Of a DNA stretch of 26,497 bases, positions 670 to 18,340 are shown piece by piece. Below the pieces are notes generated by a model. It was not told the DNA's origin, searched no databases, and saw only the letters and a program-made list of their open reading frames with translations. Position 1 is the stretch's first letter, and every line of letters begins with the position of its first letter. The position numbers were made by a program, and so were the translations under genes. The DNA is taken from contig JAOZRC010000002.1 of NCBI GenBank assembly GCA_029940345.1, forward strand, positions 1 to 26,497. Direction: 5' to 3'. Source of the DNA: Desulfobacterales bacterium. GTDB taxonomy: Bacteria > Desulfobacterota > Desulfobacteria > Desulfobacterales > JAUCGF01.

Positions 670-2943
670 TTATGATAAAGTTTTCTTTTTCAAAACTGCT
701 TTTATTTTATTTTCCTGCGTCCATTTTTTCCTGGCAGCTACTTTCACTTTGCTGACAAGCTGTTCAATATCAAACGGTTTGGTCAAATAATCAAACGCCC
801 CCAGTTCCATCAAAGTCGTTGCCGATTCAAGCTTGGTATGTCCAGTTAGCATAATGACTTCAGTCAGCGGAGCTATTTTATTAATTTCTTTGAGCGTCTC
901 CAGTCCGTCCATACCCGGCATTTTGACATCCAGGATAATAACATCCGGCTTTATATTCGTTTTTAGTTTAGCCACACATTCAGCGCCGTTAAAAGCCTGA
1001 ATGGTCTTGATATTTCTTCGTTCCAACCGTTTGGCAACAGCTTTCACATACGCAACTTCATCATCCACTAGCATTACGGATGGAGATTTGATGGTGATTT
1101 CCTCTTTAACACTACTGTCCGTTGTTTTCGTCCGGCCTTTCATATCACTGACTTTTGCGTTGTACAAAGCGATCACTGCCCGACGATTGAGCATTCCGAG
1201 CAAGATACCAGGATCATCGCTTTGCACCACCGGCAGGCTGTCGATATTTTTCATCGTAAATTTATTCAGAACAGAATTCAAATTTTCTTCAAAAGTAGTG
1301 GAAATAATCTCCGAATTTCCAATATCTATCATGCGTATGACGTCGTTTAACTCCGGTTTAAATAATATCCCGCGGATATCGTTAATGGAAAATATCTGTA
1401 CGAGCCGCTTTTCCTTATTCACCACCGGAAAGTAATGTTGGCCAGTCTCGCTAAAAAACTTTTTAAAATCGGAAAAGCTGTAATGGTACGGTACGGTTTC
1501 CACCTTATACACCGAATCAACGAGGTCATGTACATGGATATCCTGCAGGATATCTACAAAAAATTCGCCGGTGTGGGCGGGTGAAGCCACTTTGTTTTGA
1601 ACCTGTTTTTCATAGATGGTCCATCTACTGCCGAGGAGATACGTAAGAGAACATACCAACAGGCTCGGAAGCAGGAGATGGTAAGAATTGGTCATTTCAC
1701 TGACAAATATGATGGTCGAAATGGGGGTGTTGGAAACTGCCGTGAAAAAACCGGCCATACCGACGATGACAAAGGCTCCCGGTTGAGTGACGATACCAGG
1801 CATCAGGTAATGGAAAATCTTGCCGACCACCCCTCCCATAGCTCCCCCGATGACCACCGAAGGCCCGAACACGCCGCCGCTGCCGCCGGATCCGATGGAA
1901 AAAGAAGTGGTCATTACTTTGCCGACGGCCAGTAAAAACAGAAAGGGGATGGTCAGTTCATTGTTGATCGCGCCTTGGGCAAAACCATATCCGAACGCCA
2001 GCGTTTGAGGTAGAAAAAACCCGATGATCCCTGTGCAAAGCCCGCCGATGGCCGGTTTGATGTGATTGGGGACATTAAAAGCCTTGAAAAGTCTTGAAAC
2101 GCCGTAAAATGCTTTGACATAGAATACACCTGTGGCCACCAACACAAACGCCAGCACGATATAGGGACCTAGTTCAACCGGATTTTGAAATTTAAAATCA
2201 GGGGAGTCAAACAATGTTCCCCATCCAAAAAACAGGCAAAACACGCAATAAGCCACTACCGATGAAATCCCGGCCGGGATAATAATTTCGGATTCGATTT
2301 CAGGGTCTTTGTACAGCACTTCGGCCGCGAACAAGGCGCCCGCCAAGGGCGCCCGGAAGATACTTCCCACGCCGGCGCTGATTCCCGCAGCCATCATAAT
2401 GCGCCGTTCCCGTGAGGTGAGATTTAATTTGGTGGCCAGAAAAGACCCGAAACCGGCTCCGATTTGCGCAATCGGGCCTTCCCTGCCGCCTGAACCGCCG
2501 GTTGTTAATGTAATGGCCGAGGCGATGGTTTTGATAATAGGCACACGGCCGCGGATAAAACCGCCCTTGTGATGATAGGCCTCAATAGCGGCGTCGGTTC
2601 CGTGCCCTTCCGCTTCAGGAGCAAACGTATACACCAACCATCCGCTAAAAATCCCACCGATAGCCGGCAAAAATAGTAATATCCAACGGTTGAAAGGTGT
2701 ATGGGTAGGAAGCAAAAAATGATGTTCACCGGCTGGCGAGGGTGGGCGGTATCCGGCTATAAAATCCATAAAATAATGACTGCCCAACACACACAGCGTA
2801 TGAAACAAGACGGATCCGAGCCCTGCAATGATTCCAATAGCAACAAAATAGAAAACCCATTTACCGCCATGAACGATTTTTTGCGATTGCTGAGGCCCGA
2901 AGGCCCTATTCAAATGCTGTTGTATTTTTTCCTTAAGTTTCAT
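670..2943 (-). CDS. ClC anion channel/transporter fused to CBS pair and response-regulator receiver domain
   Basis: Membrane ClC protein of 757 residues. Residues ~25-450 are the ClC fold: gating glutamate E155 in GGREGP, GSGGSGGVFGP at 351-361, and Y444 in the last helix where the pore tyrosine sits. The first ion-site motif is GHGTDA (113-118) instead of GSGIP, and the internal proton-glutamate position reads FAAEVL (E208 followed by V). A CBS pair follows at ~465-600. Residues 621-757 are a complete REC domain: acidic pair D627/D628, phospho-acceptor D672, T700 and K722 are all present. That REC aligns without gaps to residues 4-140 of the stand-alone regulator at 2987-3433, with 91 of 137 identical by hand count. 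ClC-CBS is common; ClC with a C-terminal REC is not an architecture I know as standard. It follows the regulator gene by 43 bases in the same direction, so co-transcription is likely. The substrate is unknown; GREGP argues against the fluoride-specific subclass. Confidence 0.93.
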   Translation of the reverse strand: MKLKEKIQQHLNRAFGPQQSQKIVHGGKWVFYFVAIGIIAGLGSVLFHTLCVLGSHYFMDFIAGYRPPSPAGEHHFLLPTHTPFNRWILLFLPAIGGIFSGWLVYTFAPEAEGHGTDAAIEAYHHKGGFIRGRVPIIKTIASAITLTTGGSGGREGPIAQIGAGFGSFLATKLNLTSRERRIMMAAGISAGVGSIFRAPLAGALFAAEVLYKDPEIESEIIIPAGISSVVAYCVFCLFFGWGTLFDSPDFKFQNPVELGPYIVLAFVLVATGVFYVKAFYGVSRLFKAFNVPNHIKPAIGGLCTGIIGFFLPQTLAFGYGFAQGAINNELTIPFLFLLAVGKVMTTSFSIGSGGSGGVFGPSVVIGGAMGGVVGKIFHYLMPGIVTQPGAFVIVGMAGFFTAVSNTPISTIIFVSEMTNSYHLLLPSLLVCSLTYLLGSRWTIYEKQVQNKVASPAHTGEFFVDILQDIHVHDLVDSVYKVETVPYHYSFSDFKKFFSETGQHYFPVVNKEKRLVQIFSINDIRGILFKPELNDVIRMIDIGNSEIISTTFEENLNSVLNKFTMKNIDSLPVVQSDDPGILLGMLNRRAVIALYNAKVSDMKGRTKTTDSSVKEEITIKSPSVMLVDDEVAYVKAVAKRLERRNIKTIQAFNGAECVAKLKTNIKPDVIILDVKMPGMDGLETLKEINKIAPLTEVIMLTGHTKLESATTLMELGAFDYLTKPFDIEQLVSKVKVAARKKWTQENKIKAVLKKKTLS

Positions 2944-2986
2944 GATTACGATTTATGTTTTGAATTTGGGTGCTGCCGGACAAAAT

Positions 2987-3433
2987 TTAAGCGTAATAGA
3001 AAGGGCCATATTTTGACAAGGTTTCCTGTTTCAAAGCTTCCTCAATCTTTTTTTCATGCTCATGTTTTTTTTTGGCCGCTGCCTTCACTTTGCCGACAAG
3101 CAGTTCAATATCAAACGGTTTCATCAGATAATCAAAAGCTCCCTGTTTCATGCCTTCAATGGCTGACTCCATCGTAGCATGTCCGGTAAGCAAGATAACT
3201 TCTGTCATGGGAGTTGTCTTTTTAATTTCCTTTAACGTTTCATGCCCGTCCATGCCCGGCATCATGACATCCAGAACAATGACGTCAAGATTTTGATTTG
3301 ATTTCAGTTTTTCGAGTCCTTCGGCCCCGCTAAAGGCCGTAATGGTCTTAATGTTTCTATTGTTCAGCCGTTCGGCCATGGCTTTGACATAAGTTACTTC
3401 ATCATCCACTAACATAATGTATGGTTCTGTCAT
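2987..3433 (-). CDS. REC-only response regulator with conserved C-terminal tail
   Basis: Single receiver domain of 148 residues with no DNA-binding or enzymatic output domain. D10/D11, phospho-acceptor D55, T83 and K105 are intact, so it should accept phosphate from a histidine kinase or phosphotransferase. After the domain (~residue 122) comes a Lys/Glu-rich helical stretch and a hydrophobic/aromatic tail ending KYGPFYYA. The paralogue at 4082-4528 has the same tail and is identical at 114 of 148 positions (hand count). The REC on the ClC protein immediately downstream is also closely related but ends before KYGPFYYA. The start is supported by AAGGGAG upstream of ATG 3433. Its likely role is to signal to a protein partner, perhaps the neighbouring ClC proteins; this is inference. 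Confidence 0.92.
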   Translation of the reverse strand: MTEPYIMLVDDEVTYVKAMAERLNNRNIKTITAFSGAEGLEKLKSNQNLDVIVLDVMMPGMDGHETLKEIKKTTPMTEVILLTGHATMESAIEGMKQGAFDYLMKPFDIELLVGKVKAAAKKKHEHEKKIEEALKQETLSKYGPFYYA

Positions 3434-3589
3434 AAATATTCTCCCTTACTGTTGTTCTGGTATAACTGTGTATTTAATTTTTTATTATCGTTATTCTCGT
3501 TTCAACAATCCGGCACTGGAACATTCTCTCACGGACGCTCTTACATCAATCTGGAATATAGGGTGCCAATGGCGACTTGTAAGGCAAGG

Positions 3590-3814
3590 TTATTTCGCAT
3601 TTAACAGTTCATCAACACAAAGCCCTATATCTTTTGCAATTTTTTGCAATAGAATTGGCGAAATATCTCTACCCTTATGAAAAGAAACAGTAGTTACTCT
3701 TCCGTCTGTATGACGATACTGCTTATGAGAACCACGTTGCCGTGCTTCCTGGAAACCCAGTATTTCAAGTAATCGAGTTACCTTTTGCGGTTTTAGTGAA
3801 GGTGTTTGAGACAT
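3590..3814 (-). CDS. hicA: HicA-family toxin (mRNA interferase)
   Basis: A 74-residue protein with the HicA pattern: an N-terminal helix, LGF, RQRGSHKQYRH with catalytic His30, then GR-x-T-T-V and FHKGRDISP, ending in the I-A-x-D-I-G-L-x-x-DELL helix. HicA proteins fold like a double-stranded RNA-binding domain and cleave mRNA; the partner HicB blocks them. The start codon overlaps the stop of hicB by one base (TAATG), so the two are translationally coupled. Antitoxin-first order is the reverse of the classical hicAB layout but is seen elsewhere. The module sits between two paralogous response-regulator genes. Confidence 0.9.
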   Translation of the reverse strand: MSQTPSLKPQKVTRLLEILGFQEARQRGSHKQYRHTDGRVTTVSFHKGRDISPILLQKIAKDIGLCVDELLNAK

Positions 3815-4020
3815 TAAGCCACTGCTATCTGTTGAGTTCCAACAAACTCAGATTCCAGAGGAGGTTCTCCGTCCTCAAGCATCATTTCGATAACTTCTTT
3901 TAAGTTTTTATAGAGCTCATCCAAAGTCTCTGCTTGTGAATGCGCTCCTGCAAAATTTGGCACATAGCCTACATATAGTCCCGTATCTTTACAATGTTCG
4001 ACAATAGCTGTAAAGTTCAT
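3814..4020 (-). CDS. hicB: HicB-family antitoxin (short form)
   Basis: A 68-residue protein with the degraded RNase-H-like HicB core: a first strand MNFTAIVEHCKDTGLYVGYVPNF, the conserved GAHSQAETLDELYKNLKEVIEMML segment (positions ~25-48, broken here by function, not sequence), and an acidic GEPPLES end. It lacks the C-terminal helix-turn-helix or ribbon-helix-helix found in longer HicB proteins, so autoregulation by direct DNA binding is not obvious from the sequence. AGAAGGAGG precedes the ATG at 4020. It is the first gene of the hicBA pair and would neutralise HicA encoded directly downstream. Confidence 0.88.
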   Translation of the reverse strand: MNFTAIVEHCKDTGLYVGYVPNFAGAHSQAETLDELYKNLKEVIEMMLEDGEPPLESEFVGTQQIAVA

Positions 4021-4081
4021 TTTATTGCCTCCTTCTGGTTCCTCAAATCATTTGATATAACTGCCATTGTGTACAAAAAAA

Positions 4082-4528
4082 CTAAGCGTAGTAGAAAGGA
4101 CCATATTTTGACAAAGTTTCCTGTTTCAAAGCTTCCTCAATTTTTTTTTCATGCTCACGTTTTTTTTGGGCCGCCGACTCTACTTTACTGACCAATTCTT
4201 CAATATCACATGGTTTCATCAAATAATCATAAGCCCCTAATTTCATGCCATCAATGGCCGATTCCATCGTGGCGTGTCCGGTCAACATGATGACCTCAGT
4301 CAAGGGAGATGCTTTTTTAATTTTTTTGAGCGTCTCCAGCCCATCCATTCCCGGCATTTTGACATCCAGAACAACGACATCAAGCGTATCGTTCTTTTTC
4401 AATGTTTCAAGGCCTTCTTCCCCGCTAAAGGCCGAAATGGTCTTAATGTTTCTTTTTCCCAGGCGCTTGGCTATGGTTTCCACAAAAGGAACCTCATCAT
4501 CAACCAGCATAATGAATGGTGCCGTCAT
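4082..4528 (-). CDS. REC-only response regulator, paralogue of the 2987-3433 protein
   Basis: A 148-residue single receiver domain with D10/D11, phospho-acceptor D55, T83 and K105. The last 22 residues, through KYGPFYYA, are identical to those of the paralogue at 2987-3433, and the two genes are also very similar at the DNA level over their 3' ends, so they arose by tandem duplication. One difference in a functional spot is Cys instead of Phe two residues after the conserved Lys (KPCD versus KPFD). AAGGAGG sits just upstream of the ATG at 4528. It lies 104 bases downstream of the ClC gene at 4633-6396. Each ClC gene in this block therefore has one REC-only neighbour on the same strand. Confidence 0.92.
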   Translation of the reverse strand: MTAPFIMLVDDEVPFVETIAKRLGKRNIKTISAFSGEEGLETLKKNDTLDVVVLDVKMPGMDGLETLKKIKKASPLTEVIMLTGHATMESAIDGMKLGAYDYLMKPCDIEELVSKVESAAQKKREHEKKIEEALKQETLSKYGPFYYA

Positions 4529-4632
4529 GGTTATTCCTCCTTATTACAAAGTCAGTTTACATTTTTTCCTTGGTATTTCGGTTTCCAATGTTAGGGTGTT
4601 GCTGCTGAACACTGAAATCTAAAACCCGGCAT

Positions 4633-6396
4633 TCAAGTAATCGCTTTTTTAATCACAGCCTGATCGTAAGCTTCCAGGATATCCCGGCGCGTCAGGACGC
4701 CTAATAATTTCAAAGGTTCGTCCGGTGACACAACGGGAAGGATAGCGAAATCATCCGAAGTGATTTTTTCAAAAGCGGTGTTCAGATTATCCTCTATCGA
4801 CACGGTAATCGGGTCCGGCGTCATAATATCCCTGACGGTCATCTGTTCATCAATTTTTTCGACAAACAAGGCGTTATAATAATCAAGAAATGTAAGCACA
4901 CCAGTCATTTCCTCCTTTTTATTCACCACCACGAAATTGTTGGATCTGCTTTTGGGAAGATTTTCGGCAAACATTTTCAGGGGCAGATGCTCCGGAACGA
5001 TTTCTACCGTGTGATACATCACATTTTTTACTGGCATTGAAGCTAATATATTAACCTCCTTGCCCTCCCTGATATTTATCCCTCGTCTTATCAGTTTAAA
5101 GGTATAAATGGATTCACCACATAACCGTCTGGCAACCAGGGTGCTGATGATGCATGTAATCATAAGCGGAAGGATAATTTTGTAGTCACCGGTCATCTCA
5201 AAAATAATCAATATCGCTTGTAAGGGCCCATGCGTGGTTGCAGCAACAACCGCCCCCATGCCGACAACAGCATAAGCTCCGGGCGAGAGTACGATGGTCG
5301 GAAAGAGTTCGTTAACGATCAACCCAAAAGCGCCTCCCGCCATGGCGCCCATGAAAAGCGAAGGAGCGAAAATACCGCCGGAACCTCCTGATCCGATCGT
5401 AATCGCTGTGGCCAGAATTTTAAAGAGAACCAGAAGACCCATGAACCACCAGGACAGCTTTAGCATAAGAGCCAGATCGATACCACCGTAACCGACTCCT
5501 AATACCTGGGGAAAAGCAAGCCCTAACGCTCCCATCATCAATCCCCCTATAACAGCCTTGAGATATTCAGGAAACTTAATGGCGTCCCAGGCATCTTCGG
5601 TGCGATAGAGGAATAGAGTGAAACCTACGGCGACCAGGGCGCAAAGGACACCCAAAATAGCATACAAAGGAAATTCCAGGGGGCTGTGCAGGATATATTC
5701 AGGGAGAATAAATGCAGGGACATCCCCGAGATAATGCCGTGAAATAGCCGTGGCCGAGACGGCCGATATAATGATGGGGCTAAATGCGGCAATTCCAAAT
5801 TCACCGAGAATAATTTCAAGGGCAAAAATGGAACCGGCAATAGGGGCGTTGAAAGTGGCTGCAATACCGGCAGCAGCACCGCAACCGACCATGATCCTGA
5901 TTCGATCGCCCGAAACCTTGAACAGTTGCCCCAAAGACGAACCTACTGCGGATCCTATTTGAACGATGGGCCCCTCTCGTCCGACTGAACCGCCTGTTGC
6001 GATACAAACCGCGGATACAAAGGCTTTAATAAACACGATCCGCATTCTTATGATTCCCTGTTTAAGGGCAACGGCGTACATGACTTCCGGAACGCCGTGT
6101 CCCTTAGCTTCGCGGGCATAAAAATAAACGATTGGCCCCACAATCAATCCGCCAAGGGCCGGAATGAGAAGCCGCCAATACCAAGAGAACGATGTAACTA
6201 CGTCAAGCAATTCATCCGGTGAGCCATACGCAATCGTCTGGATGAAGTTTATAAGATAGCGAAACCCAACAGCTCCATAACCACCCGCCACCCCCACAAA
6301 AAGACCCAGTGCGACCATAGTCGTATGTTCATCTGAAAACAGGCGTCTGAGAGTTGAATGTAAGACTGAACTTTTTTTAGAAATTTGGGAGTCCAT
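4633..6396 (-). CDS. ClC chloride channel/transporter with C-terminal CBS pair
   Basis: A 587-residue ClC membrane protein. Motifs are GHGVPEV (99-105; His replaces the usual Ser of the central anion site), GREGP with gating glutamate E141, GGSGGIFAP (337-345) and a tyrosine in the final helix (Y431). The internal proton-glutamate position reads FALEII (E194 followed by I), as in some other bacterial ClC proteins. CBS domains occupy ~455-580, with the second ending in GVLTRRDILEAYD. Unlike the second ClC protein (670-2943) it has no receiver domain. GAAGGAAAG lies upstream of ATG 6396. Anion specificity and channel versus H+-exchanger mode cannot be read from the sequence. CBS pairs commonly bind adenine nucleotides and gate such proteins. 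Confidence 0.94.
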   Translation of the reverse strand: MDSQISKKSSVLHSTLRRLFSDEHTTMVALGLFVGVAGGYGAVGFRYLINFIQTIAYGSPDELLDVVTSFSWYWRLLIPALGGLIVGPIVYFYAREAKGHGVPEVMYAVALKQGIIRMRIVFIKAFVSAVCIATGGSVGREGPIVQIGSAVGSSLGQLFKVSGDRIRIMVGCGAAAGIAATFNAPIAGSIFALEIILGEFGIAAFSPIIISAVSATAISRHYLGDVPAFILPEYILHSPLEFPLYAILGVLCALVAVGFTLFLYRTEDAWDAIKFPEYLKAVIGGLMMGALGLAFPQVLGVGYGGIDLALMLKLSWWFMGLLVLFKILATAITIGSGGSGGIFAPSLFMGAMAGGAFGLIVNELFPTIVLSPGAYAVVGMGAVVAATTHGPLQAILIIFEMTGDYKIILPLMITCIISTLVARRLCGESIYTFKLIRRGINIREGKEVNILASMPVKNVMYHTVEIVPEHLPLKMFAENLPKSRSNNFVVVNKKEEMTGVLTFLDYYNALFVEKIDEQMTVRDIMTPDPITVSIEDNLNTAFEKITSDDFAILPVVSPDEPLKLLGVLTRRDILEAYDQAVIKKAIT

Positions 6397-6484
6397 ATTG
6401 TATGCTTTCCTTCACAGCCCGAGCAGGCTTGAAAAGTTAAAATTAAAACACAGTCTACCAACATAAACTGGGACGCAACAACAT

Positions 6485-6513
6485 CTCATTACGAGGCAGA
6501 GCCTCGTAATGAG
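6485..6513. repeat. Dispersed GAGGC palindrome, copy 2, in the 6397-6692 spacer
   Basis: A perfect 13-bp inverted repeat (CTCATTACGAGGC / GCCTCGTAATGAG) with a 3-base loop AGA. It shares TTACGAGGC/GCCTCGTAA with the copy at 294-318. It lies in the 296-base spacer between the DASS gene (6693) and the ClC gene (ATG 6396). No gene or convincing T-tailed terminator is seen elsewhere in that spacer. The symmetry could form a bidirectional RNA hairpin. Confidence 0.7.
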
Positions 6514-6692
6514 CAACGCGGTTAATTTATCTCACTTTTGTTGGCGGCAAAAAACAATACTGCCCGGAAGACCTTACCTGGTTTGAGCGATAAGCCGTTG
6601 GCTAATCACTCAATCCAAGTCTTTTCTTCTTCAAGACCATAAGCCTCGTTTCGACCAGTTATCCGACGAGCTACACCTTCGGAGCCAGGCAA

Positions 6693-8294
6693 CTATTGAG
6701 CAGTGCTTTGAAGCACCTGCGTGGCCTGCTCAAGAATTCCTTCCGGGAAACCGACGATGGGGTAAATCACGAGGAATCCGACGATCCAGAGCAGCAGCAT
6801 GGAAATGATAAAAAAGCCAAAACCGTATTTTACAAAATCAATCGCTTCAAGGACTCTCTTATTGGTGTCCGGATAAATGCCCAGAGCAAAGGTCAACGCA
6901 TTGGCAGGCGATCCCACGATCAGAAAATGAGCAAACGAAGACGCCAATGCCACGGCCATGCCGATGGCCCATGGTTCGCCGGCCACTCCGGTCATAATCC
7001 CCATGGGGACGACAATAGGTCCGATCAGGGCGACCGTAGCGGCGTCGGACATAAAGTTGGTGACCAGACCGGAGAAAGCGGACATCCCAACCCATAGCCC
7101 ATACCCTTTATCCATACCGATCTGTGAAAGTCCGTCCAGGAAAGTTGTTGCCAGCCACAGGGCACCGCCGCTTTCTTTAAGAAGGGCGCCCAGGGTCAGC
7201 GCTCCGCAGTACATGAACCAGGCGTTGAAGGATATACGTTTCAGTATATTTTCAAATGGAACGGTCTTGAATAAAACCGGTATAACCAGTGCCAAAAGCG
7301 CCGGACCGCCAAGACCGGTGGCTTCCCCACCAAAAATCCAGAGGGCTACGATGAGCACAAGCGATCCGCCCGTAATATACTCGGCATAACTCATATTGCC
7401 CATTTTGCGCGTTTCGTCCTTAATATATTCCAGTCCGGGGGTGAGGTCCCGTGTCTTTATATTTTTACTGAAAAAGGCCCACATATAGAGTATCAACAAG
7501 CCGCTGCCGAGCGGCACCAGCGGCCATCCGTATTTCATCCAGCCGGCATAAGAAATCGGTATACCATACTCGGTAAAGAATCCCATCATGATCACATTAC
7601 GTCCCCCTGCCGATGGTGTTCCCGGACCTCCCATATTCAGGGCGAAGCAGAGGGAAAAAAGCAAAAATTTGGCCAAGGCGGGATCATGAACTACCGCCTC
7701 CCCCTCCGGGCTGTTGGCCTTCACCGACCCGTAATAAACCGCCATCATCACCGGCACCATAAAGGAACACATGGCCGGAGCCGACATAAATGACCCCACG
7801 ATCGACATGCTGAAACACAATACGATCATGGGAACCCAGAATCCTTTGGTCCAACCCAGCAGCCAGACGGCCAGGCGTTTATGGAAACCGACTTCCACCA
7901 CCGTGGCTCCCAGGGCAAAAACACCTAACATGAACAACGGCGCATCACCTGCAAAGGTCTTTCCGATCGCATTGAAAGGGAGAAGTCCGAAAAAGTAAGC
8001 CATAAGCGGCATCAGGATACCCGTTGCCCCGATGGGGAGGGCTTCAACGGCAAAAAAGATAACCGCCATGGGAACAATCCCCAATACGATCATCGTTTTA
8101 TGTGAAGCTTCCTCGACGTTATGAGCGATCTCCCACTCGATCATCTTGTTGACATAACCATATTTTTCCATCACATCAATAAGAGACTGAGGCGTTGGCA
8201 GAATAAAGGCAACCAGTATAAAAATGCCGACGCCAATACCGATCCATAGCCCCTTTTTGGCGAATATTCCCGTTTTCTCACCGTGGGTGTCCAT
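6693..8294 (-). CDS. DASS/SLC13-family sodium:divalent-anion symporter
   Basis: Polytopic membrane protein, 533 residues from the chosen start, with the two-repeat organisation of the SLC13/DASS family. The first ion/substrate hairpin region carries GGPGTPSAGGRN (an SNT-motif variant), and the second carries TNFMSDAATVALIGP. These proteins couple Na+ to uptake of dicarboxylates, sulfate or similar anions. Sulfate is an attractive guess given the SulP gene nearby but is not proven. A longer frame begins at 8333, but AAGGAGG lies directly before the ATG at 8294 (protein start MDTHGEKTG), so that start is preferred. It is preceded on the same strand by a CBS-pair gene, with a large hairpin between them. 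The C-terminal codons end with TAG at 6693-6695. Confidence 0.92.
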   Translation of the reverse strand: MDTHGEKTGIFAKKGLWIGIGVGIFILVAFILPTPQSLIDVMEKYGYVNKMIEWEIAHNVEEASHKTMIVLGIVPMAVIFFAVEALPIGATGILMPLMAYFFGLLPFNAIGKTFAGDAPLFMLGVFALGATVVEVGFHKRLAVWLLGWTKGFWVPMIVLCFSMSIVGSFMSAPAMCSFMVPVMMAVYYGSVKANSPEGEAVVHDPALAKFLLFSLCFALNMGGPGTPSAGGRNVIMMGFFTEYGIPISYAGWMKYGWPLVPLGSGLLILYMWAFFSKNIKTRDLTPGLEYIKDETRKMGNMSYAEYITGGSLVLIVALWIFGGEATGLGGPALLALVIPVLFKTVPFENILKRISFNAWFMYCGALTLGALLKESGGALWLATTFLDGLSQIGMDKGYGLWVGMSAFSGLVTNFMSDAATVALIGPIVVPMGIMTGVAGEPWAIGMAVALASSFAHFLIVGSPANALTFALGIYPDTNKRVLEAIDFVKYGFGFFIISMLLLWIVGFLVIYPIVGFPEGILEQATQVLQSTAQ

Positions 8295-8342
8295 AAAAAA
8301 TTCCTCCTTAATTTTTTTAATTTCGGTTTTCAAATCATGAAT

Positions 8343-8449
8343 GAAATAACTTTCCCCTTTTCATACTCTTAATCGTACGCTTAATCTGGACGATTAAGCG
8401 TACGATTAAGAGTAAGAATTTAATTTTATCTAATTGGGTAAGTTATTTC
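8343..8449. repeat. Nested inverted repeat with 23-bp hairpin arms between the CBS and DASS genes
   Basis: Positions 8364-8386 and 8392-8414 are perfect reverse complements (23 bp) around a 5-base loop TGGAC. Each arm contains the heptamer CTTAATC twice around GTACG, giving four copies in 51 bases. An outer pair, GAAATAACTT (8343-8352) and AAGTTATTTC (8440-8449), frames the whole. No T-run follows on either side, so it is not a typical intrinsic terminator. It could be a small non-autonomous mobile repeat, a strong transcript hairpin separating the two genes, or a protein-binding site. Confidence 0.8.
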
Positions 8450-8501
8450 TTCCAGGTTCTAGTTAAATTTAAACTGTTCTCAATAAAATCCGGAATTCAA
8501 A

Positions 8502-9050
8502 TTAACAGGTCTTGATCTTATCGCAAATTGTTGTGAATACATCGGTCAATCGCAATAGTCCCACGACATCACTTCCCCGGTTTACAAGCAGAGATTGATG
8601 TTTTTGTATGACAATCTGATGAATCGCCTCACCCAGTGTGGCCGTTTCATTTATATACACGCCATCAGAGAGAACCGCCATGAAATCATTCACTTTAAGT
8701 TTAAGCGCTTTGCTGCAAATAAACTCGAACGGTTCATTCCATAGAACATTGTCTTTGAGCATTGAGTTGATTAATTCCGTGCTATACCCTGAACGGGATA
8801 GCGCGCCTTCCGCTTCCAATTGCCCATACTTGGGTTCAAGGGCGATCAGGATATCAAATATGGCCACTTTGCCGACAACCTTGCCGCTCTTGTCAAGCAC
8901 CAGGATGGCACGGTGTTTATGTTTCTTCGGGTCAAATGCCGTTTGCGCTTTTTCCAAAGCAAGGATCGCATCGTAGAGCGTCGCATCCTCAAGAACCGTT
9001 GCATACTCTTCGAGGGGTACCATTAAATCCTTTACAATTATCGTTCTCAC
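8502..9050 (-). CDS. Stand-alone CBS-pair protein
   Basis: Soluble protein of about 182 residues with two CBS motifs: CBS1 ~5-70 (VKDLMVPLEEYATV, then GKVVGKVAIFDIL) and CBS2 ~120-175 (VNDFM, then SDVVGLLRLTDVF). CBS pairs bind adenosyl ligands (AMP, ATP, SAM) and act as energy or ionic-strength sensors, often regulating transporters. I chose GTG at 9050 because GGAGG lies six bases upstream and the family typically starts just before VKDLM; an ATG at 9065 would add five residues and would contain the ribosome-binding site itself. It lies upstream of the DASS symporter on the same strand, separated by the large hairpin, so a sensor/transporter pairing is plausible. Confidence 0.88.
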   Translation of the reverse strand: MRTIIVKDLMVPLEEYATVLEDATLYDAILALEKAQTAFDPKKHKHRAILVLDKSGKVVGKVAIFDILIALEPKYGQLEAEGALSRSGYSTELINSMLKDNVLWNEPFEFICSKALKLKVNDFMAVLSDGVYINETATLGEAIHQIVIQKHQSLLVNRGSDVVGLLRLTDVFTTICDKIKTC

Positions 9051-9636
9051 ATTGAGCCTCCACACAAGTTAAAAATTATTAAATCAGGTTTCGCCGATTC
9101 AGATGATTGGGGGTAATAACAGCAAAGCAAAAATATTGCTTTGAGCGCCGATGCCTGCGAATATTCCCTCCTTTATAGGTCTTTGGCAATAAGGACAAAT
9201 TAACTTATCTATTCAGAATAAAAAGTAAGATTATGAAATTGAGCAGCCCTTTCATCCCTGATACTATGGCAGTTTAACATCGGTTTGAAGGTTATGGCGA
9301 TTTAACAGAGCCTTTTATCAATCGTACAAGCGCTATGACTTTAAAATTCAATTAAAGTCATAAAATCCTCTATTTTATACCATGACGTATTCAAATGCAA
9401 CAACTTTCTATAATCAATCATAGAATGCAAGCTTTCACTCACAGAAATTGTAAGGAAAAATTGGTATCCTTCAAAATAGCTTAAAAGCGATTTACACTCT
9501 TTGGGCACCAACATTAGCTGGACAGCATGTAAAGCGGAACAGCTTTCCACTTTTCATTTGACCCGCCTTATGGTGGCAGCCAACGATCAAATCATATTTT
9601 AGCTGAATTATTCAGATAGAAAAGTTAATGAAACTA
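9051..9636. other. 586-base spacer with no convincing gene
   Basis: This region separates the CBS gene from the signalling operon. A 69-codon minus-strand frame at 9341-9550 has no good ribosome-binding site or family resemblance, and I do not call it. Two small inverted repeats are visible: CAAAGCAA/TTGCTTTG (9123-9143, loop of 5) and an 11-bp AT-rich hairpin at 9334-9344/9352-9362. The promoter of the CBS gene should lie here, but no strong -35/-10 pair stands out. Confidence 0.6.
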
Positions 9637-10080
9637 TCAGGATGAAAATCCTTGCAAACCAAATTTTTCAAGCACCTCATCCACTTTCTTTTGGTTTTGC
9701 TTGTCAATAACGATCATTTTATTGTCATGGGCTTCTTTGATTTTCTGAGTGATTTCATCCATATCAGCCGGTTTTTCTATATAATCCAGCGCCCCCTCTT
9801 TCATGGCCTCCACCCCTTTTTTAACACTGGCGTGTCCTGTGAGCAGAATAATCTGCAACTCCGGTTTTTTGGCCTTAATCGCTTTCAGGGCTTCAATGCC
9901 ATCCATACCGGGCATCTGAAAATCCATGATAATGGCATCAAATGATTCTTGTTCAATTTTTTCCAGCGCTTCCCTGGCTGACATGGATGTGGAAACATCC
10001 ATCCCGCGAGCGCTTATCCTTTCTCCCATCGCTTCAAGAAACTCTTTTTCATCATCTACAATCAGTACTCTTGCATTCAT
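9637..10080 (-). CDS. REC-only response regulator (last gene of signalling operon)
   Basis: A 147-residue receiver domain with D9/D10, phospho-acceptor D53, T81 and K103 present, followed by a Lys/Glu-rich helix and a short tail ending LEKFGLQGFSS. There is no output domain. The tail ends in the same helix-plus-aromatic style as the REC-only proteins at 2987-3433 and 4082-4528, though the sequence differs. AAAGGAGG precedes the ATG. It follows the REC-only gene at 10115-10489 by 35 bases and resembles it along the domain (VDDE-x-EFLEAM, MDF-x-MP-x-MDGI-x-ALKA), so these two are also paralogues. It is probably a phosphate-accepting partner in the relay encoded upstream. Confidence 0.92.
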   Translation of the reverse strand: MNARVLIVDDEKEFLEAMGERISARGMDVSTSMSAREALEKIEQESFDAIIMDFQMPGMDGIEALKAIKAKKPELQIILLTGHASVKKGVEAMKEGALDYIEKPADMDEITQKIKEAHDNKMIVIDKQNQKKVDEVLEKFGLQGFSS

Positions 10081-10114
10081 AACAATCCTCCTTTAAAATA
10101 AATAGTATTTTTAG

Positions 10115-10489
10115 TTATTGATTTCGATTTTGAGAATGCACCCTTTTAATAATTTTGGTCAGCAATTCAAGATTGGCCGGTTTTTCAAACAGTGCGGCGG
10201 CGCCAAATTGCAGGGCTTCTTTTTTTTTTTCAACGGTCGCATAACCGGTAAGCATGAATACATGTAGTTCCGGATTTATCTTTTTTAGCGCTTTTAGCGC
10301 TTTGATGCCATCCATATCCGGCATCATAAAATCCATGACCACCGCATCGAACGTTTCAGTTGCCACCATTTGCAACGCTTCATAAACCGATTCGGCGGTT
10401 GCCACTGTCATGCCTCGCATCACCAATCGCTCCGCCATCGCTTCCAAAAACTCGGTTTCATCATCTACCAGCAAAACTTTTGCAGACAT
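10115..10489 (-). CDS. REC-only response regulator
   Basis: A 124-residue minimal receiver domain (D9/D10, phospho-acceptor D53, T81, K103) with only a few residues after the last helix, and thus without the long C-terminal tail of the other REC-only proteins here. Tyr follows TG in the T81 region (LTGYAT), where the paralogues have His. CAAGGAG lies upstream of the ATG. It is encoded between the kinase-like protein (ends 10549, 60 bases away) and the REC-only gene at 9637-10080, all on the same strand, so co-transcription is likely. In size and simplicity it resembles single-domain relay or CheY-type regulators. Confidence 0.92.
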   Translation of the reverse strand: MSAKVLLVDDETEFLEAMAERLVMRGMTVATAESVYEALQMVATETFDAVVMDFMMPDMDGIKALKALKKINPELHVFMLTGYATVEKKKEALQFGAAALFEKPANLELLTKIIKRVHSQNRNQ

Positions 10490-10548: not shown

Positions 10549-11211
10549 TTATTGCATCTCGTCTGGTAGCGTAATAACGAGTTCCCCAGATTCAGTATCA
10601 GCAAGAAGATCGGCCTGAAGTGCGGATGCCAGCGACGCGGCGGCATCGTCCGGAAAACCGGCCGCCAGTTCGCCTGAAAATTGGCCTGGTTGTTCAAACC
10701 GGATCAGTGCGCCCTTTTCTGTTTTCGCGCACCCCAATTTGAGGACACTCTCTTCTTCCATCTGATCCAGGGCGAATTCAAGACACAGCCAGATGAGATT
10801 TTCCAGGATAAAAGGCGCTGTTGTAATTGACACCGATTCAGACACGGCCGACAATTCCAATTTTATACTTTTAATGGCAGCCAGTCTCTCAGCCAGGGCA
10901 ATCATCAATTTGAGGGTGGCGTTCAGATCAGTTTTTTGTCGGTCCTGGTCAATACTGTGAGCAAAAAGATTCATCTTTTTGATAATTGCGTCGGCGCGCG
11001 CCACCTGTGCCGTAATTTTGTCGGCTTTAGCGCCTACCTGATGCGGGTTCAGCTCCAGCCCTTTTTCGACCATTAACGTGTAATCTTTGAGCAGTCCGGC
11101 ATTCTCATTGATTATGGCCAGCACATTTTTAATTTCATGGGAGATCGAAGCGGACATTTTCCCAAAAAAACGTAAACCGGCAACGCCAATCGTGTCTTCA
11201 ACAGATTGCAT
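10549..11211 (-). CDS. Histidine-kinase-like protein with H-box but no recognisable ATP-binding boxes (candidate phosphotransferase)
   Basis: About 220 residues. Near the start is a clear dimerisation/phospho-acceptor helix, FFGKMSASISHEIKNVLAII, with His25, closely matching the H-box of the full kinase encoded just upstream (LASGVAHEINNPLAIMNEK). The C-terminal half has the hydrophobic spacing of a kinase catalytic domain, and a degenerate N-box may be FILENLIWLCLEFALDQM, but the DxGxG and GxGLG nucleotide-binding boxes and the F-box are missing. It is cytosolic with no membrane segment. This layout resembles the histidine phosphotransferases ChpT and Spo0B, which keep the phospho-histidine helices and have a non-ATP-binding pseudo-catalytic domain. 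ATG 11211 is preferred (AGAGGA upstream) over an upstream TTG start. It sits directly between the kinase and two REC-only genes. Confidence 0.8.
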   Translation of the reverse strand: MQSVEDTIGVAGLRFFGKMSASISHEIKNVLAIINENAGLLKDYTLMVEKGLELNPHQVGAKADKITAQVARADAIIKKMNLFAHSIDQDRQKTDLNATLKLMIALAERLAAIKSIKLELSAVSESVSITTAPFILENLIWLCLEFALDQMEEESVLKLGCAKTEKGALIRFEQPGQFSGELAAGFPDDAAASLASALQADLLADTESGELVITLPDEMQ

Positions 11212-11298
11212 GACAATTCCTCTTTGGGAGTTTGAAATTATAGCGTTCCCACGCAAAGTATACGAACCCCTTCAATTTTAAATTTGTTTTGATAAACT

Positions 11299-13068
11299 TC
11301 AAACTTCAGATTTGCAAGTAATATCTTTTTCCTTGTTTATTTCCTTATTTTTTATTTTTAAAGGTAGCCGCACTATAAAACAGGTGCCTTCATCCAACTG
11401 ACTGGTAACGTTGATTTTTCCTCCCATCTCTTCAACCAGGCCGTAAGTGAGCGACAACCCCAAGCCGGTGGCGCCCTGCCCAAATTTCGTCGTGAAAAAG
11501 GGATCAAACACTTTTTTCAAATCTTCCCCGGAGATTCCGCAACCGGTGTCCCTGAAGGTAACCAGGATAAAATCCTCTGTTTCACGACGAATTTTTATTT
11601 CCAAACGGCCGCCGTCATTCAAAGCGGAAAACGCATTATTGATAATATTAAGAAAAATTTGATGGATGTTGCCTTGATCACTTTCCAACTGCGGAAGATC
11701 ATCCGGAATATCAATGACAATCTCCAGCCGGCGATATTCCGCATCTTTTTTCATAAAAGCCATGATTTCATCAATCACATCGCTCAAATTTACAATCTCG
11801 ACATTTATTTCCATGTGGCGGGCAAAATTCAGCAAGCGCCGGGTGATATCGCGACACCGTTTTATTGTGGTGAGAATTGAATCTACGAGACCCAGGAGCT
11901 TCGGATCCTGCTCGTAATCCTGATGAAAGGTAAATATATCCTTAATTAACCCGGCTTTTTCATTCATAATTGCCAACGGGTTATTGATTTCATGGGCCAC
12001 ACCCGACGCTAAACGCCCGATAGAGGCCATTTTGTTACTGTATTCCACTTCGTGTAAAGCAACAATGCGTTTTTGATCCGCGGTATAGATTTTATTCACC
12101 AGGTAAGTCGCCATTCCTAAAATGACGCACAAAATGATAACAATACTGATAAACAAAAAAACAAAAAACGTTAAGCGGACATCATGCCAGGGCTGCATAA
12201 GATGGTCTTTCTTGCCAACGACCATCAGGATAAAAGATGTTTCCGGGATATAGACATACCCTACCAGTAATCTGAGGCCCGTTTTAGCGGTGGTTTCAAA
12301 TACACTGGCTTCATCAGTAGGTTGCGGAATCGGCAGCGGGAGTTTATCAGATACCTCACCGAAAAAACGCGATTGGGTTTGCAGGAATCCATCCGTGTTG
12401 ACCAGGAAAGCGTCACCGCTTTTATCCAGGTCCAGTTTTTCGAGAAGTCTGTTAATATGCCCGGCGCCTAAAGTGGCTCTTAAGACAAAGAATGAACCGT
12501 CCGGCAACGGATGCCTGACCGCCATGACAAGATGCTTAAAACGGTGTGAGCCTAGGATCAAATCGCTGATATACATACCTTTCTTCACGACTTCTTGAAA
12601 GCATTGGTTATCACAGTAGTTAGATTTTTCTAAACCGAAAGGCCCGACATAAGATTGCTGCAATCCTTTGGCATTAATAACGCCAAGGTCTATAAATTCG
12701 CCTACGCCCACTTTACGCAGACTTTCAAAAATGTTGCCAAGCCGCTGTTTATCACATAAATCCTGGTACGGATTATCCTCAAGGATAAAATCCATGACCT
12801 GCTTATGTCCTGACAAAAAGTAGGAAACGGCTTGATGGGTTTTGGATACACTTCGCACCATTTGAATACGAATTTCGGATTCCACAGCCTTGAGGGTGAT
12901 ATCATACTCCAGCCAGGTCATAAAAAGCAGCGGCACGAGCGCTATTGGCGTTGTCAGCAGGATAATCAGTTTCCATTTACGACGAAAATTAAACAGAGAC
13001 TGGTACGGGCCGGCGGCTACGTCGTGGTGATCCCAAAATTTCGGTTTTAATCTTGCGAAGATAGTCAT
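11299..13068 (-). CDS. Membrane sensor histidine kinase with dCache-like periplasmic domain
   Basis: 589 residues: TM1 ~33-52, a large periplasmic Cache-type sensor ~55-295, TM2 ~300-324, then HisKA with phospho-acceptor H359 (SGVAHEINNP) and HATPase_c. N-box IFLNIINNAF (471-480), G1 DTGCG (507-511), F-box FDPFFTTK and G2 GATGLGLSL (532-540) are all intact, so this is the one complete kinase in the window. Four Cys occur in the sensor region (near 105-156, including YCDNQC). Translation is coupled to the upstream gene: its ATG follows the TGA of the 13070-14305 gene by one base. It is probably the phosphate source for the REC proteins in this operon. The signal is unknown; Cache domains bind small molecules. 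Confidence 0.95.
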   Translation of the reverse strand: MTIFARLKPKFWDHHDVAAGPYQSLFNFRRKWKLIILLTTPIALVPLLFMTWLEYDITLKAVESEIRIQMVRSVSKTHQAVSYFLSGHKQVMDFILEDNPYQDLCDKQRLGNIFESLRKVGVGEFIDLGVINAKGLQQSYVGPFGLEKSNYCDNQCFQEVVKKGMYISDLILGSHRFKHLVMAVRHPLPDGSFFVLRATLGAGHINRLLEKLDLDKSGDAFLVNTDGFLQTQSRFFGEVSDKLPLPIPQPTDEASVFETTAKTGLRLLVGYVYIPETSFILMVVGKKDHLMQPWHDVRLTFFVFLFISIVIILCVILGMATYLVNKIYTADQKRIVALHEVEYSNKMASIGRLASGVAHEINNPLAIMNEKAGLIKDIFTFHQDYEQDPKLLGLVDSILTTIKRCRDITRRLLNFARHMEINVEIVNLSDVIDEIMAFMKKDAEYRRLEIVIDIPDDLPQLESDQGNIHQIFLNIINNAFSALNDGGRLEIKIRRETEDFILVTFRDTGCGISGEDLKKVFDPFFTTKFGQGATGLGLSLTYGLVEEMGGKINVTSQLDEGTCFIVRLPLKIKNKEINKEKDITCKSEV

Positions 13069-13069
13069 T

Positions 13070-14305
13070 TCAGTCAGTCCTGTTCACAGTTATTGCATCT
13101 TGACAAATTTTCGCATTCGCTTGCTTGAGAACCAAGCTCAATTCTTCAATATCCACCGGCTTTTGCATGTAGGCGAAAGCGCCCAGGTCCATGCAGGTTA
13201 AACGATCTTCTTCCGATCCGTGGCCAGTCAGTACAATCACTTCAATCTCAGGATGATCGGCCTTCACTTTTTTCAATACCTCAAAGCCATCAACATGGGG
13301 CATTTTCAAGTCAATGACGATGACTTCGGGTTCATCATCCTGCACGAGGTTTAACGCCGCCTGGCCATCATATACAACCGCCGATCCCATGTCGCGCATG
13401 ATAAGCCGCTCAGAAAGCGTTTGAACAAATTCCCGTTCGTCATCCACCAGGAGGACTTTGGACGGCATTTGAAAATTGGTCTTGCGGTAGATATTGGATT
13501 GATGAAAATCCTTGCCCACGGTGGTGGTCACTGAATTTACACCAGGTAAAGGCGCTACGATCTTCTTAAGTTCTTCATCCAGGCGGTTGAGTCGCAGTAC
13601 ATTTTTATTGGCCACCAATGTTACCACCCCTTCCAGAGCGTTTACCTCGATATTGTGACCTTCTTTGGCAAGTGCGACGCTGATTTGGGCGGCCAGCAAA
13701 AAATCCTGAACAGCCTGTTGCGACTGCCGACTCGGCCGCAGGATATTCTTGAGAAGATTTTCTTCAATAGCCGATGAAGCGGAAGCGGCCCCGAGTTTAT
13801 CCATTGGCAGGACAAGATCGTAAACAGACTCACTCCAGGGATCTGTAAGGCCAAAGAGCTTTTCGGTCCAAGCCCCGTAATCGCCATCTTTTCGACGGAT
13901 TTGTTTAAGCGCTTCCTTTTGAGAAAGCTGGTGTTGGGACGCGGCCACGGAATAGCGATATTTCAAATCGCCGATAAGGCAGACGCGTAAAACATGACTG
14001 ATTGTTTTGGGAATGAGATGGCTCGTGCAGCCGGTAATGATAAGATTATCCTCGGTCAATTGTTGCGCTAAAGCCAGTTTCAGATAGGCGATCACGCGTT
14101 CTTTCTCTTGGGTGAATTTATTAAAAACAGACGTTTTGGCTGTAAAGGCCCTGGTAATTTTAGATTCGGCCAAATCGGAAATGGTACTCGCCTGGATGAC
14201 AATCTCTTCTTCGGTGAGCTGTTTGTAGCCAATGCCGGCTACCAGATCATCAACCACAGCTTCCTGTTCACAGAAAATTCCGCTAAAAATGGTAATCACT
14301 GACAT
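13070..14305 (-). CDS. Pseudo-cytidylate-kinase-like / BON-like / receiver fusion protein
   Basis: 411 residues in three parts. Residues 1-~200 match the 266-residue cytidylate-kinase-like protein at 15102-15902 in order and spacing (MS-I/V-ITI start, LG-Y at ~27, two-helix middle, L-R-V/I at ~106). The P-loop, however, is lost: the paralogue has GSYSKGKE where this one has GIFCEQEA. Residues ~215-265 form a BON-like segment (VNALEGVVTLVANKN, then LPGVNSVTTTV). Residues 281-395 are a complete REC domain with D288/D289, phospho-acceptor D332, T360 and K382. GGAAAGGAG precedes ATG 14305. It is the first gene of the signalling operon and is coupled to the histidine kinase. The N-terminal part probably no longer phosphorylates nucleotides and may act as a ligand or protein-binding module; this is inference. 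Confidence 0.82.
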   Translation of the reverse strand: MSVITIFSGIFCEQEAVVDDLVAGIGYKQLTEEEIVIQASTISDLAESKITRAFTAKTSVFNKFTQEKERVIAYLKLALAQQLTEDNLIITGCTSHLIPKTISHVLRVCLIGDLKYRYSVAASQHQLSQKEALKQIRRKDGDYGAWTEKLFGLTDPWSESVYDLVLPMDKLGAASASSAIEENLLKNILRPSRQSQQAVQDFLLAAQISVALAKEGHNIEVNALEGVVTLVANKNVLRLNRLDEELKKIVAPLPGVNSVTTTVGKDFHQSNIYRKTNFQMPSKVLLVDDEREFVQTLSERLIMRDMGSAVVYDGQAALNLVQDDEPEVIVIDLKMPHVDGFEVLKKVKADHPEIEVIVLTGHGSEEDRLTCMDLGAFAYMQKPVDIEELSLVLKQANAKICQDAITVNRTD

Positions 14306-16180: not shown

Positions 16181-18340
16181 TCAGTTACCAATTTTTAGTG
16201 ATTTGATAACCGCCAGGGGGCACCTCTTTTCATCACTGCGCTGGTGAGTCGTTTGATAGACGCCGTTGATTGCGCTTTCCATCGTTGGGAAAAAGTGTTC
16301 TTCTCCGATCTTTACACGCAGATGGGTGCGTTCAAGCACCGCTTTGACATCGCGGTGCATGCCGCTAAAGGAGATATCCAATCCGGCGCTGCGAATCCGT
16401 TCCACAATCAGAGACAAAACTTCCTCCCCGGATGCATCCATATCATTAATACCGTTGCATACGAAAATAATATGTTTTAAGTCCTTTTTGGAGCGCCGAC
16501 GGTCTCTGATCTGGTCTTCGAGGTAAGCGGCATTAGCAAAGAAAAGCGGTCCGTCAAAACGAACGACATCAATATATTTGCACTCTTTAAGACCGGACGC
16601 CACTGCATTGCGAAGATTATGGTGAACGTCAAGGGACAGATCAACCACCGCCGGACGCATATTCTTATAAAAAAAGACCGACAGAGACAGAATCACGCCC
16701 ACCATGATTCCTTTATCCAGATGGGGCGCAAACGCCAAGGTGCAGCCAAAGGTGACAACTGAAATGACGCCGTCGTACCAGCGCGCTCTCCAGGCATGAA
16801 TAAAGCCCCGGATATTGATCAGTCCGAAAACCGCCACCATGATCACAGCAGCCAGAACTGATTGGGGAAGATAATATAAAAGCGGTGTGAAAAACAATAA
16901 AACAATAACGACTGCCAAGCTGGTTACAACACTGGATAGCCCTGTCATGGCGCCGGCTTGAAGATTAACCGCTGATCTGGAAAAAGAACCCGAAGTCGGG
17001 TAGCTCTGGCCAATGGCTCCCAGTATGTTCCCCAAACCTTGGCCGATAAGTTCCTGGTTGGGATCGATCCGCTGTCCCGTTTTCCCGGACATAGCCTTAG
17101 CAATGGAAATCGCTTCCATAAATCCCAAAAGCGAAATAATCGCCGCATATTCTAATAAATGTTTAAAAGCAGCGAAGTTAAAGGTCGGTGCTCGTAGAGC
17201 TGGCAACCCGCCAGGTACTGCACCCACCACCTGACCGCCGCCCATCATCGTCAGTTGATTAATATCAAGCGGCTTGTTTCCTACGATGACACGCCAGATA
17301 TGACCATCATCTTTTAACTCCGCGATGCTTTTATCGTCAGGAGTTTTATCATTGGGATCAAAGTGATCCGCGCCGTCAGGCGTTTGAACGCGCCTGAATA
17401 AAACGCTTCTGATTTTTTTTCGCAGACGCAATTTGTCATATTTCAATTCGGCGTTGTACAGGTCAATTAAATCAAGTTCAAATTTGACGTCTAACACAGT
17501 GGGCGTATCATCACGTTTTTGTGCTTCTTCCAATTTGCGCCTAAACAGCGCGCGCATGGAACTCAACGGCGCCGCATCAAGAAAAACCTGATTGAATTCC
17601 AGAATCGCCTGACGGACAGATGGCGATTTAAGCGCCTCAAATTTGATGTTGCAGTTGTTTTCAAATCCCAACGTTTGAGATAGAATTGTCGCTATAACCA
17701 CGGCCACCAAGACATTCGGGATTGTGGGCAAAAGGCGCTTCAATGTGTACATAATAGCGAAAGCCAAAATTCCCATTAGCAACGTAGGCCAATGGATGTA
17801 AACAATCGCAGCATGAATGACGCGTATAATGGTTTCATAATGGTGGTCGGCTTTATCCACATAAACGCCAAACAGTTTTGATAGTTGGGAAGAAGCGATG
17901 ATAATCGCCGCCGCATTGGTAAAGCCATTGACCACAGGATGAGAAAGCAGATTCACAATCATACCGAGTCTTAAAACCCCCAGGGAGAACTGGAAAAGGC
18001 CGACCAAAAGGGACAGCATAATCGCATAAGCGATGTAGCCTTCGGAGCCGCTCGCAGCCAGGGGTTCTAATGCCGCTGCCGTCATTAAAGACACTACGGC
18101 CACGGGTCCGGTGGCCAATTGACGGCTTGAACCAAACAGGGCCGCAATCATCGGCGGCAGAAAAGCGGCGTATAGCCCATAAAACGGTGGTAGTCCCGCC
18201 AGTTGCGCGTAGGCCATTGATTGGGGAATCAATACCATGGCCACAGTCAACCCGGAAATGATGTCCATACGTAGGTAATAAGCGTTATACTTATCAAACC
18301 ATTTTAGAAATGGTAAAAATTTTACAAGCAATGAAGGCAT
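16181..18340 (-). CDS. SulP-family anion transporter with STAS domain and large extra insert
   Basis: 719-residue SulP/SLC26-type transporter. The N-terminal signature QSMAYAQLAGLPPFYGLYAA is at ~40-59; the core motif GQSYPTSGSFSRSAVN is at ~443-459; a STAS domain is at ~570-700. In the STAS domain the SpoIIAA-type phosphorylation region reads DASGEE, so the first Ser of the usual DSSG is Ala. Most unusual is a soluble, charged stretch at ~228-368 between LSQTLGFE and VGAVPGGLP, where most family members join almost directly; it is rich in Lys, Arg, Asp and Glu and predicted helical by eye. SulP proteins carry sulfate, bicarbonate and related anions. A weak GGAAGAA precedes ATG 18340. It is transcribed divergently from the 18553 gene. 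Confidence 0.93.
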   Translation of the reverse strand: MPSLLVKFLPFLKWFDKYNAYYLRMDIISGLTVAMVLIPQSMAYAQLAGLPPFYGLYAAFLPPMIAALFGSSRQLATGPVAVVSLMTAAALEPLAASGSEGYIAYAIMLSLLVGLFQFSLGVLRLGMIVNLLSHPVVNGFTNAAAIIIASSQLSKLFGVYVDKADHHYETIIRVIHAAIVYIHWPTLLMGILAFAIMYTLKRLLPTIPNVLVAVVIATILSQTLGFENNCNIKFEALKSPSVRQAILEFNQVFLDAAPLSSMRALFRRKLEEAQKRDDTPTVLDVKFELDLIDLYNAELKYDKLRLRKKIRSVLFRRVQTPDGADHFDPNDKTPDDKSIAELKDDGHIWRVIVGNKPLDINQLTMMGGGQVVGAVPGGLPALRAPTFNFAAFKHLLEYAAIISLLGFMEAISIAKAMSGKTGQRIDPNQELIGQGLGNILGAIGQSYPTSGSFSRSAVNLQAGAMTGLSSVVTSLAVVIVLLFFTPLLYYLPQSVLAAVIMVAVFGLINIRGFIHAWRARWYDGVISVVTFGCTLAFAPHLDKGIMVGVILSLSVFFYKNMRPAVVDLSLDVHHNLRNAVASGLKECKYIDVVRFDGPLFFANAAYLEDQIRDRRRSKKDLKHIIFVCNGINDMDASGEEVLSLIVERIRSAGLDISFSGMHRDVKAVLERTHLRVKIGEEHFFPTMESAINGVYQTTHQRSDEKRCPLAVIKSLKIGN

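Follow-up and report, generated by a model that had tools for sequence, protein, structure and literature searches.

A ClC-family protein of a Desulfobacterales bacterium continues, after its CBS pair, into a complete receiver (REC) domain, whose counterpart in a sister species is encoded as a protein of its own. The gene lies in the window, by which we mean the whole stretch of DNA that was analysed (26,497 nucleotides, the entire contig C52). The sequence facts and the origin of the fusion are firm. ClC-CBS proteins and receiver fusions are known, and the type of gene cluster has been in print since 2025; what appears to be new is the joining of a ClC protein to a receiver, and the open-access papers that we searched do not name such a fusion.

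Because what is a free-standing receiver in the sister species forms part of the transporter chain here, ion flow may be under the direct control of a sensor kinase. In the explanation that we prefer, and to which we give about an even chance as a whole, a ClC-CBS gene (ClC1) came to lie among several stand-alone REC genes, arranged as an array within a cluster of the sulfate-uptake type, and was fused in frame with the REC gene next after it. A histidine kinase of the cluster, most likely the one linked to the array, would phosphorylate D672 of the receiver, and the activated receiver would alter the conformation of the CBS pair or of the dimer and hence anion flux. The unfused receivers of the cluster would work in trans on nearby transporters or CBS proteins, in which case the fusion reveals what these receivers, which otherwise have no output, act on. 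With a receiver built into the transport protein, ion flux could respond rapidly to an external signal, without new protein. The main rivals of flux control are a role of the ClC part as a membrane anchor, with the receiver as a phosphate sink, and a near-neutral fusion.

The fusion protein

The fusion gene occupies positions 670..2943 on the minus strand (reading from 2943 to 670) and encodes a protein of 757 aa (P0001), with an ATG start and without an internal stop. The sequence-only reading had described this open reading frame, giving no strand, as one unbroken ClC-CBS-REC chain with an intact receiver site, and the Pfam domains and the named residues bear it out. The Voltage_CLC membrane domain (1633..2658, minus strand; residues 96-437; Pfam E 4e-94) is followed by the CBS pair (1144..1551, minus; residues about 465-600), in which the best Pfam CBS match covers residues 540-592 (1.9e-10). 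Then come a linker (1093..1143, minus; residues 601-617) and the REC domain with its tail (673..1092, minus; residues 618-757), an orthologue of the stand-alone REC1 of the sister species. Response_reg (PF00072) matches residues 623-733 with E 4.6e-28, and the Voltage_CLC, CBS and Response_reg matches all exceed the curated Pfam cut-offs.

The receiver active site is complete, with D627, D628, D672, T700 and K722, and with E629 and Y719 adjoining; the fused REC thus has the acidic pair, the phospho-Asp, the Thr and the Lys of a phosphorylatable receiver. The nearest solved sequence, by alignment, is the NtrC receiver (E 5.7e-21). The active site is the same as in receivers of the NtrC-N, Spo0F and CheY type, but here it is covalently within an ion-transport protein, while receivers mostly drive transcription, enzymes or motors. 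In the AlphaFold model, the ClC-CBS part is well modelled, with strands and helices in the CBS region at residues 490-600, and a fold search aligned the model with PDB 3org over residues 22-591; that this search listed no receiver carries no weight, given how little of the REC was modelled well. The surroundings of the linker (residues 602-629) have low pLDDT. The REC part of the underlying alignment (A2) is two sequences deep, and this domain is modelled poorly (block pLDDT 26-60); that AlphaFold does not place it counts against our explanation.

The ClC family assignment is supported by the Pfam match (PF00654, above the curated cut-off) and by the ClC fold. "Anion transporter", as the protein had been called from the sequence alone, holds as a statement about the family, but the ion and the mode of transport are not fixed by it. 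We take E148 of CLC-ec1 (GREGP) to be the gating glutamate, E203 the internal proton glutamate, and S107 (GSGIP) the central serine. The gating glutamate is kept in the aligned GREGP motif as E155, while valine 209 stands at the E203 position and His114 (GHGTD) at the S107 position, all three being invariant in 35 aligned sequences. Since the last two positions hold valine and histidine, chloride/proton exchange of the CLC-ec1 type should not be assumed. Its surroundings would fit a part in balancing charge or handling anions while sulfate is taken up, which is a reasonable guess only.

Origin of the fusion

The sister species (G001) belongs to the same genus, its genome is 94% complete, and it is the only other genome of the family that was compared. 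ClC1 was not found in this genome, and its REC1 stands alone, with 137 bp between it and the second ClC gene, ClC2, upstream. In a tree of 82 REC rows, which has few columns and in which the bootstrap has not settled, the fused REC groups with REC1 (support 99/92), and RECa, a stand-alone receiver of the window, is the next sister of this pair (99/96). Matches below 42% identity (window rows excepted) or shorter than about 95 columns had been dropped from the tree.

The start of REC1 in the sister species reads AAAGGAGAGTCACC followed by ATG; the same place in the fusion reads AAAGAGGAAATCACC followed by ATC. We therefore recognize a relic ribosome-binding site of the once-separate REC gene, AAAGAGGAA, at 1099..1107 (minus strand; codons 613-615), and, by comparison with REC1, the former start codon at 1090..1092 (minus strand), now ATC (Ile618). 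Judging from this comparison, the ribosome site and the former start of the REC gene are now translated as codons 613-618. The relatives of ClC1 end near residue 606. Together with the relic site and start, this makes it the simplest account that the ClC1 gene came before the REC gene, that the intervening stop was lost, and that the REC start was lost as well. The origin by fusion follows from both units being whole, the frame passing the stop of the relatives, the ATG having become ATC, and the receiver being conserved. No remnant of a REC was found in the gap at 3434-4081 of the window.

The fusion gene lies 669 bp inside the edge of its contig, in a genome of 6.05 Mb that is 93% complete and consists of 1024 contigs, so that a chimera, assembled from one contig with a ClC and another with a REC, had to be considered. 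However, a second protein (P0002, 759 aa), encoded on a separate 2573-bp ENA contig, has the same three domains, 95% identity to P0001 and the same junction, which contradicts an assembly error; in addition, the join has codon precision and retains the relic ribosome-binding site. An assembly join, which had been named from the sequence alone as one of the findings that would overturn its reading, is thus extremely improbable.

The two copies are identical at 423/440 positions in residues 1-440, 153/160 in the CBS residues 441-600, 12/18 in the linker (601-618), 116/122 in the REC (619-740) and 14/17 in the tail, the linker being the part most unlike between them. Fisher tests, which rest on this single pair, show less change in the REC than in the linker (p 0.0011) and a similarly small amount in the REC and the membrane part (p 0.61). 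The receiver therefore looks constrained since the fusion. This bears on the rival by which a young read-through fusion is near-neutral, the ClC and REC parts acting as they did when separate and the covalent link having no role. The relic ribosome-binding site and start codon point to a recent origin of the fusion, as this rival would have it, and among the matches listed the fusion is confined to one lineage. On the other hand, the active-site residues of the REC are unchanged in two sequences that are 5% apart, and the linker, although it drifts, has not regained a stop. We consider such a fusion unlikely, though well worth weighing. For our preferred explanation, in which phosphorylation of the receiver controls flux, the intact active site, the constraint on the REC, the stand-alone REC1 of the sister species and the relic site and start are all favourable. 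Against it, the fusion is seen in only two closely related sequences and so gives no evidence of recurrence.

Rarity of the fusion among ClC relatives

The ClC1 family is widespread: with the full protein as the query, it was matched in 265/389 genomes at the order level (E up to 1e-150) and 208/395 at the phylum level (E up to 1e-60). Among the matches listed in both sets, no open frame but the window's own runs through into a REC. A fused close relative should top such a listing, while a distant ClC with a separate, weaker REC piece would escape it. The fusion is thus rare, being confined, among the matches listed, to the window and P0002.

A plasmid search yielded one ClC match over half of the query, without a REC. 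With the REC as the query of a protein search, PF00654 was found only in P0002 among the best 120 of 177 matches, and these included no other recognised transporter accession, so fusions of this receiver to other transporters were set aside as a candidate. In the protein search that gave P0002, 8000 candidates were scored and 120 listed. The closest named relatives of the ClC, among the matches listed, come from metagenome-assembled genomes (MAGs) of Desulfobacterales and other Deltaproteobacteria. The protein searches require shared exact words, and ClC-REC fusions of unrelated sequence could escape them.

Four matches (G024, G233, G104 and G130) pass residue 630 only through stops, and neither a whole REC nor the remains of one turned up in these loci by tblastn. 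Long open frames of ClC relatives were further candidates for REC fusions; we read 35 of them (9 + 20 + 6 from three rounds), and none had a REC match. At the C-terminal end, 17 of the 35 carry a second CBS pair (recognized by eye and by its match to ClC2), 16 have no extension, one has a TrkA_C-like end by eye (L186), and one is masked (L197). In the TrkA_C-like case (L186:1258-4947, G443), the ClC relative is 1229 aa long and has some 515 additional residues at its N-terminus. A 36th locus (L216, G593) had no readable ClC frame, and no REC was found there by tblastn.

Compared with other CBS-bearing ClC proteins, such as the eukaryotic CLC of PDB 3org, a REC occurs in no listed ClC relative except P0002, whereas many long members carry a second CBS pair where P0001 has its REC. 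As the second pair stands there in 17/35 relatives, the end of the CBS pair is a place where regulatory modules get added. The same count weighs against the rival in which the ClC part is mainly a membrane anchor and the REC is a phosphate sink or docks on ClC2, on the anion symporter of the cluster or on a kinase, the ClC1 flux being unchanged: the receiver is joined directly after the CBS pair, the usual regulatory end. Still, ClC1 homologues function without a REC, and the fused receiver derives from an array whose members are paralogues, stand alone and lie close to a kinase, as would suit an anchor or sink, which we regard as a minor possibility comparable to the near-neutral fusion.

The neighbourhoods of ClC1 in other genomes were considered as a source of the REC and rejected, because none of 35 other loci has a REC ORF within 1.5 kb. 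This count leaves out ORFs below 80 aa, matches that score less than 400 bits and entries repeating the same residues 100-160, and at least 500 bp downstream were present in 32/35 loci. In two loci (L013 and L014), a REC-bearing ORF lies about 2.3-2.4 kb from ClC1. It follows that the ancestral ClC1 was probably not regulated by a REC, which counts against our explanation. As a second finding that would overturn it, the sequence-only reading had named many relatives with a stop between CBS and REC together with a REC that is never phosphorylated. This applies by half: the relatives listed either stop after the CBS pair or continue into a second one, but apparently because their gene never had a REC, and the REC of the sister species is stand-alone.

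The gene cluster, the candidate kinase and known systems

The genes of the window from RECa to the SulP transporter that are described in this paragraph are on the minus strand. RECa (2987..3433), which stands alone, stops 43 bp short of the start codon of ClC1. Beyond it are a second stand-alone receiver, RECb (4082..4528; 88% to REC2 of the sister species), and ClC2 (4633..6396), an unfused ClC-CBS protein of 587 aa. The next gene (6693..8333; 96% to the sister species) encodes an anion symporter of the DASS/CitMHS type, with the Pfam domains CitMHS and Na_sulph_symp above cut-off and the NCBIfam model dass below it (129.6 bits against 198.6). It is followed by a CBS-domain protein, CBS2 (8502..9065), whose relatives in G115 and G071 are fused to a REC, by two more stand-alone receivers identified with Pfam, RECc (9637..10080) and RECd (10115..10489), and by a short HisKA-like protein (10549..11256; Pfam match below cut-off). 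A sensor histidine kinase (11299..13068) has HisKA, HATPase_c and a weak dCache_1, and CK-REC (13070..14305; Pfam) combines a cytidylate-kinase-like domain with a REC. A SulP-family anion transporter with STAS (16181..18340) completes the set. The sister species has the same cluster, in the order SulP, CK-REC, kinase, short kinase-like gene, RECd, RECc, CBS2, DASS, ClC2, REC1, REC2, REC3 and a cache kinase.

By Pfam, all six REC proteins encoded from 670 to 14305 lack a DNA-binding domain. A REC of the same clade lies 67-164 bp downstream of ClC2 in five of its seven orthologues with at least 79% identity (the window, G001, G071, G099 and G115). It is absent beside ClC2 in the other two (G081 and G117) and was not found in the 18 that were fetched of 32 more distant ClC2 relatives, which is a point against our explanation. 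In G115 and G071, clusters of the same type encode REC-CBS proteins of 344 aa (L111:6144-7178) and 341 aa (L109:13344-14369), respectively, in which a REC of the RECb clade is joined to a CBS2-family protein. With the ClC1 fusion, this makes two arrangements in which the receiver clade has been joined to a CBS-bearing partner. The stand-alone RECs of the clade (2987-3433, 4082-4528 and relatives) have in common a C-terminal tail, charged and some 25 residues long, that may be a docking peptide. The tails of RECa and RECb end in KYGPFYYA; as a regular expression, this ending pattern is present in 4/30 relatives, with near forms in others.

The kinase at 11299-13068 had been proposed as the phosphodonor to be assayed, and it is not the best candidate, as in both species it stands with the other REC set (RECc, RECd and CK-REC). 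By eye, RECa, RECb and the fused REC resemble one another in the first helix more closely than they resemble RECc, RECd or CK-REC. The kinase beside the REC array of the sister species has a 90% orthologue on contig C1022 (604-2367) of the window's own genome, in a gene run largely collinear with that of the sister. Its dCache_1 match in the sister species is 67.5 bits, against 22.6 bits (below the cut-off of 45) for the window kinase. Given that the latter keeps with the second REC set and the orthologue adjoins the array in the sister species, the array-linked cache kinase seems the likelier kinase for the fused REC, the kinase at 11299-13068 being a possible second choice.

Contig C1022 probably continues the window to the left, and no overlap between the two was found. 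Its locus L209 contains, largely in the sister order, the kinase, a REC, an 844-aa PEP-synthase-like protein, a REC protein, a CBS protein and a second DASS-like transporter, all names except that of the kinase being judged by eye. Tandem GMQQ-coding repeats precede these genes at the start of the contig, and similar repeats are present in a DUF4351 protein of the window (24406-24825); they may have broken the assembly. Just past the fusion gene, at 259-669, a stretch of 48 bp matches the beginning of the array kinase of the sister species with 79% identity, after which the frame turns unrelated; this may represent a kinase remnant or an insertion.

By gene content, the window resembles a cluster described (PMC11887813, 2025) in 26 species of sulfate reducers, Desulfosarcina variabilis among them. 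That cluster has a DASS-type sulfate transporter, many two-component genes, cache kinases and CBS proteins, and a SulP cluster also stands beside two-component genes. CBS proteins are present in the window as CBS2 (8502-9065) and as the CBS parts of both ClCs. In this source, WalR-type regulators are proposed to act at promoters, and the CBS proteins to add another layer of regulation; the legend of Fig. 5 also draws putative protein-protein links, and the word chloride does not occur in the main text as consulted. By contrast, the RECs of the window are not of the WalR type, having no DNA-binding domain, and one of them is part of a ClC. The modelling of regulators at promoters in PMC11887813 counts against our explanation. 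To that model the fusion offers an alternative that can be tested directly, and it gives a handle on what output-less receivers in transporter clusters act upon.

The best reading of this REC set seems to be that its members act on transporters or their CBS modules, and that the fusion would make this link covalent. The RECs adjacent to ClC2 in 5/7 orthologues, the REC-CBS fusions, the absence of DNA-binding domains in all six REC proteins and the 90% kinase orthologue on C1022 are further points for our explanation. Tentatively, and with less confidence than for our preferred explanation, we suggest a whole class of two-component systems in sulfate reducers and their kin with outputs to transporters and their CBS modules and not to promoters. 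Stand-alone RECs would bind anion transporters and gate them in trans, and ClC-CBS-REC and REC-CBS (G115 and G071) would be the covalent form by which this shows.

A transporter and a two-component part also share one chain in the CbrA-type fusions of SLC5 and a histidine kinase (PMC8871633, as far as consulted). There, the transporter is fused to a kinase, on the input side, whereas in P0001 it is fused to a receiver, on the output side. This published precedent, a sensor kinase, lends something to the idea that signalling runs in reverse, with ClC1 as the sensor and its anion occupancy or CBS ligand state setting the rate of REC phosphorylation or dephosphorylation; a sensor role has likewise been proposed for the transporter-kinase CbrA. 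However, a REC is the acceptor part, and the fused one has no downstream output domain, which leaves this idea with little probability. If the preferred direction, from kinase through D672 to flux, is true, aspartyl phosphorylation would join the nucleotide regulation of ClC proteins (PMC10423218 and PMC7271328, in the parts consulted) as an input at the CBS end.

The host organism likely reduces sulfate. Its own genome (G000) has aprA (938.6 bits, above cut-off), and the sister species has both dsrA (603.3 bits) and aprA (935.6 bits). No dsrA above cut-off was found in the host genome (best 26.8 bits); as the assembly is 93% complete, the gene may be absent from the assembly only, so this may be either an assembly gap or a real loss.

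Cytidylate-kinase-like proteins are encoded within the transporter cluster at 13070-14305 (fused to a REC) and at 15102-15902. Between these two genes, at 14345-14821, there is a TrkH fragment of 158 aa (profile positions 52-126 of 502), at the place where SulP directly adjoins CK-REC in the sister species.
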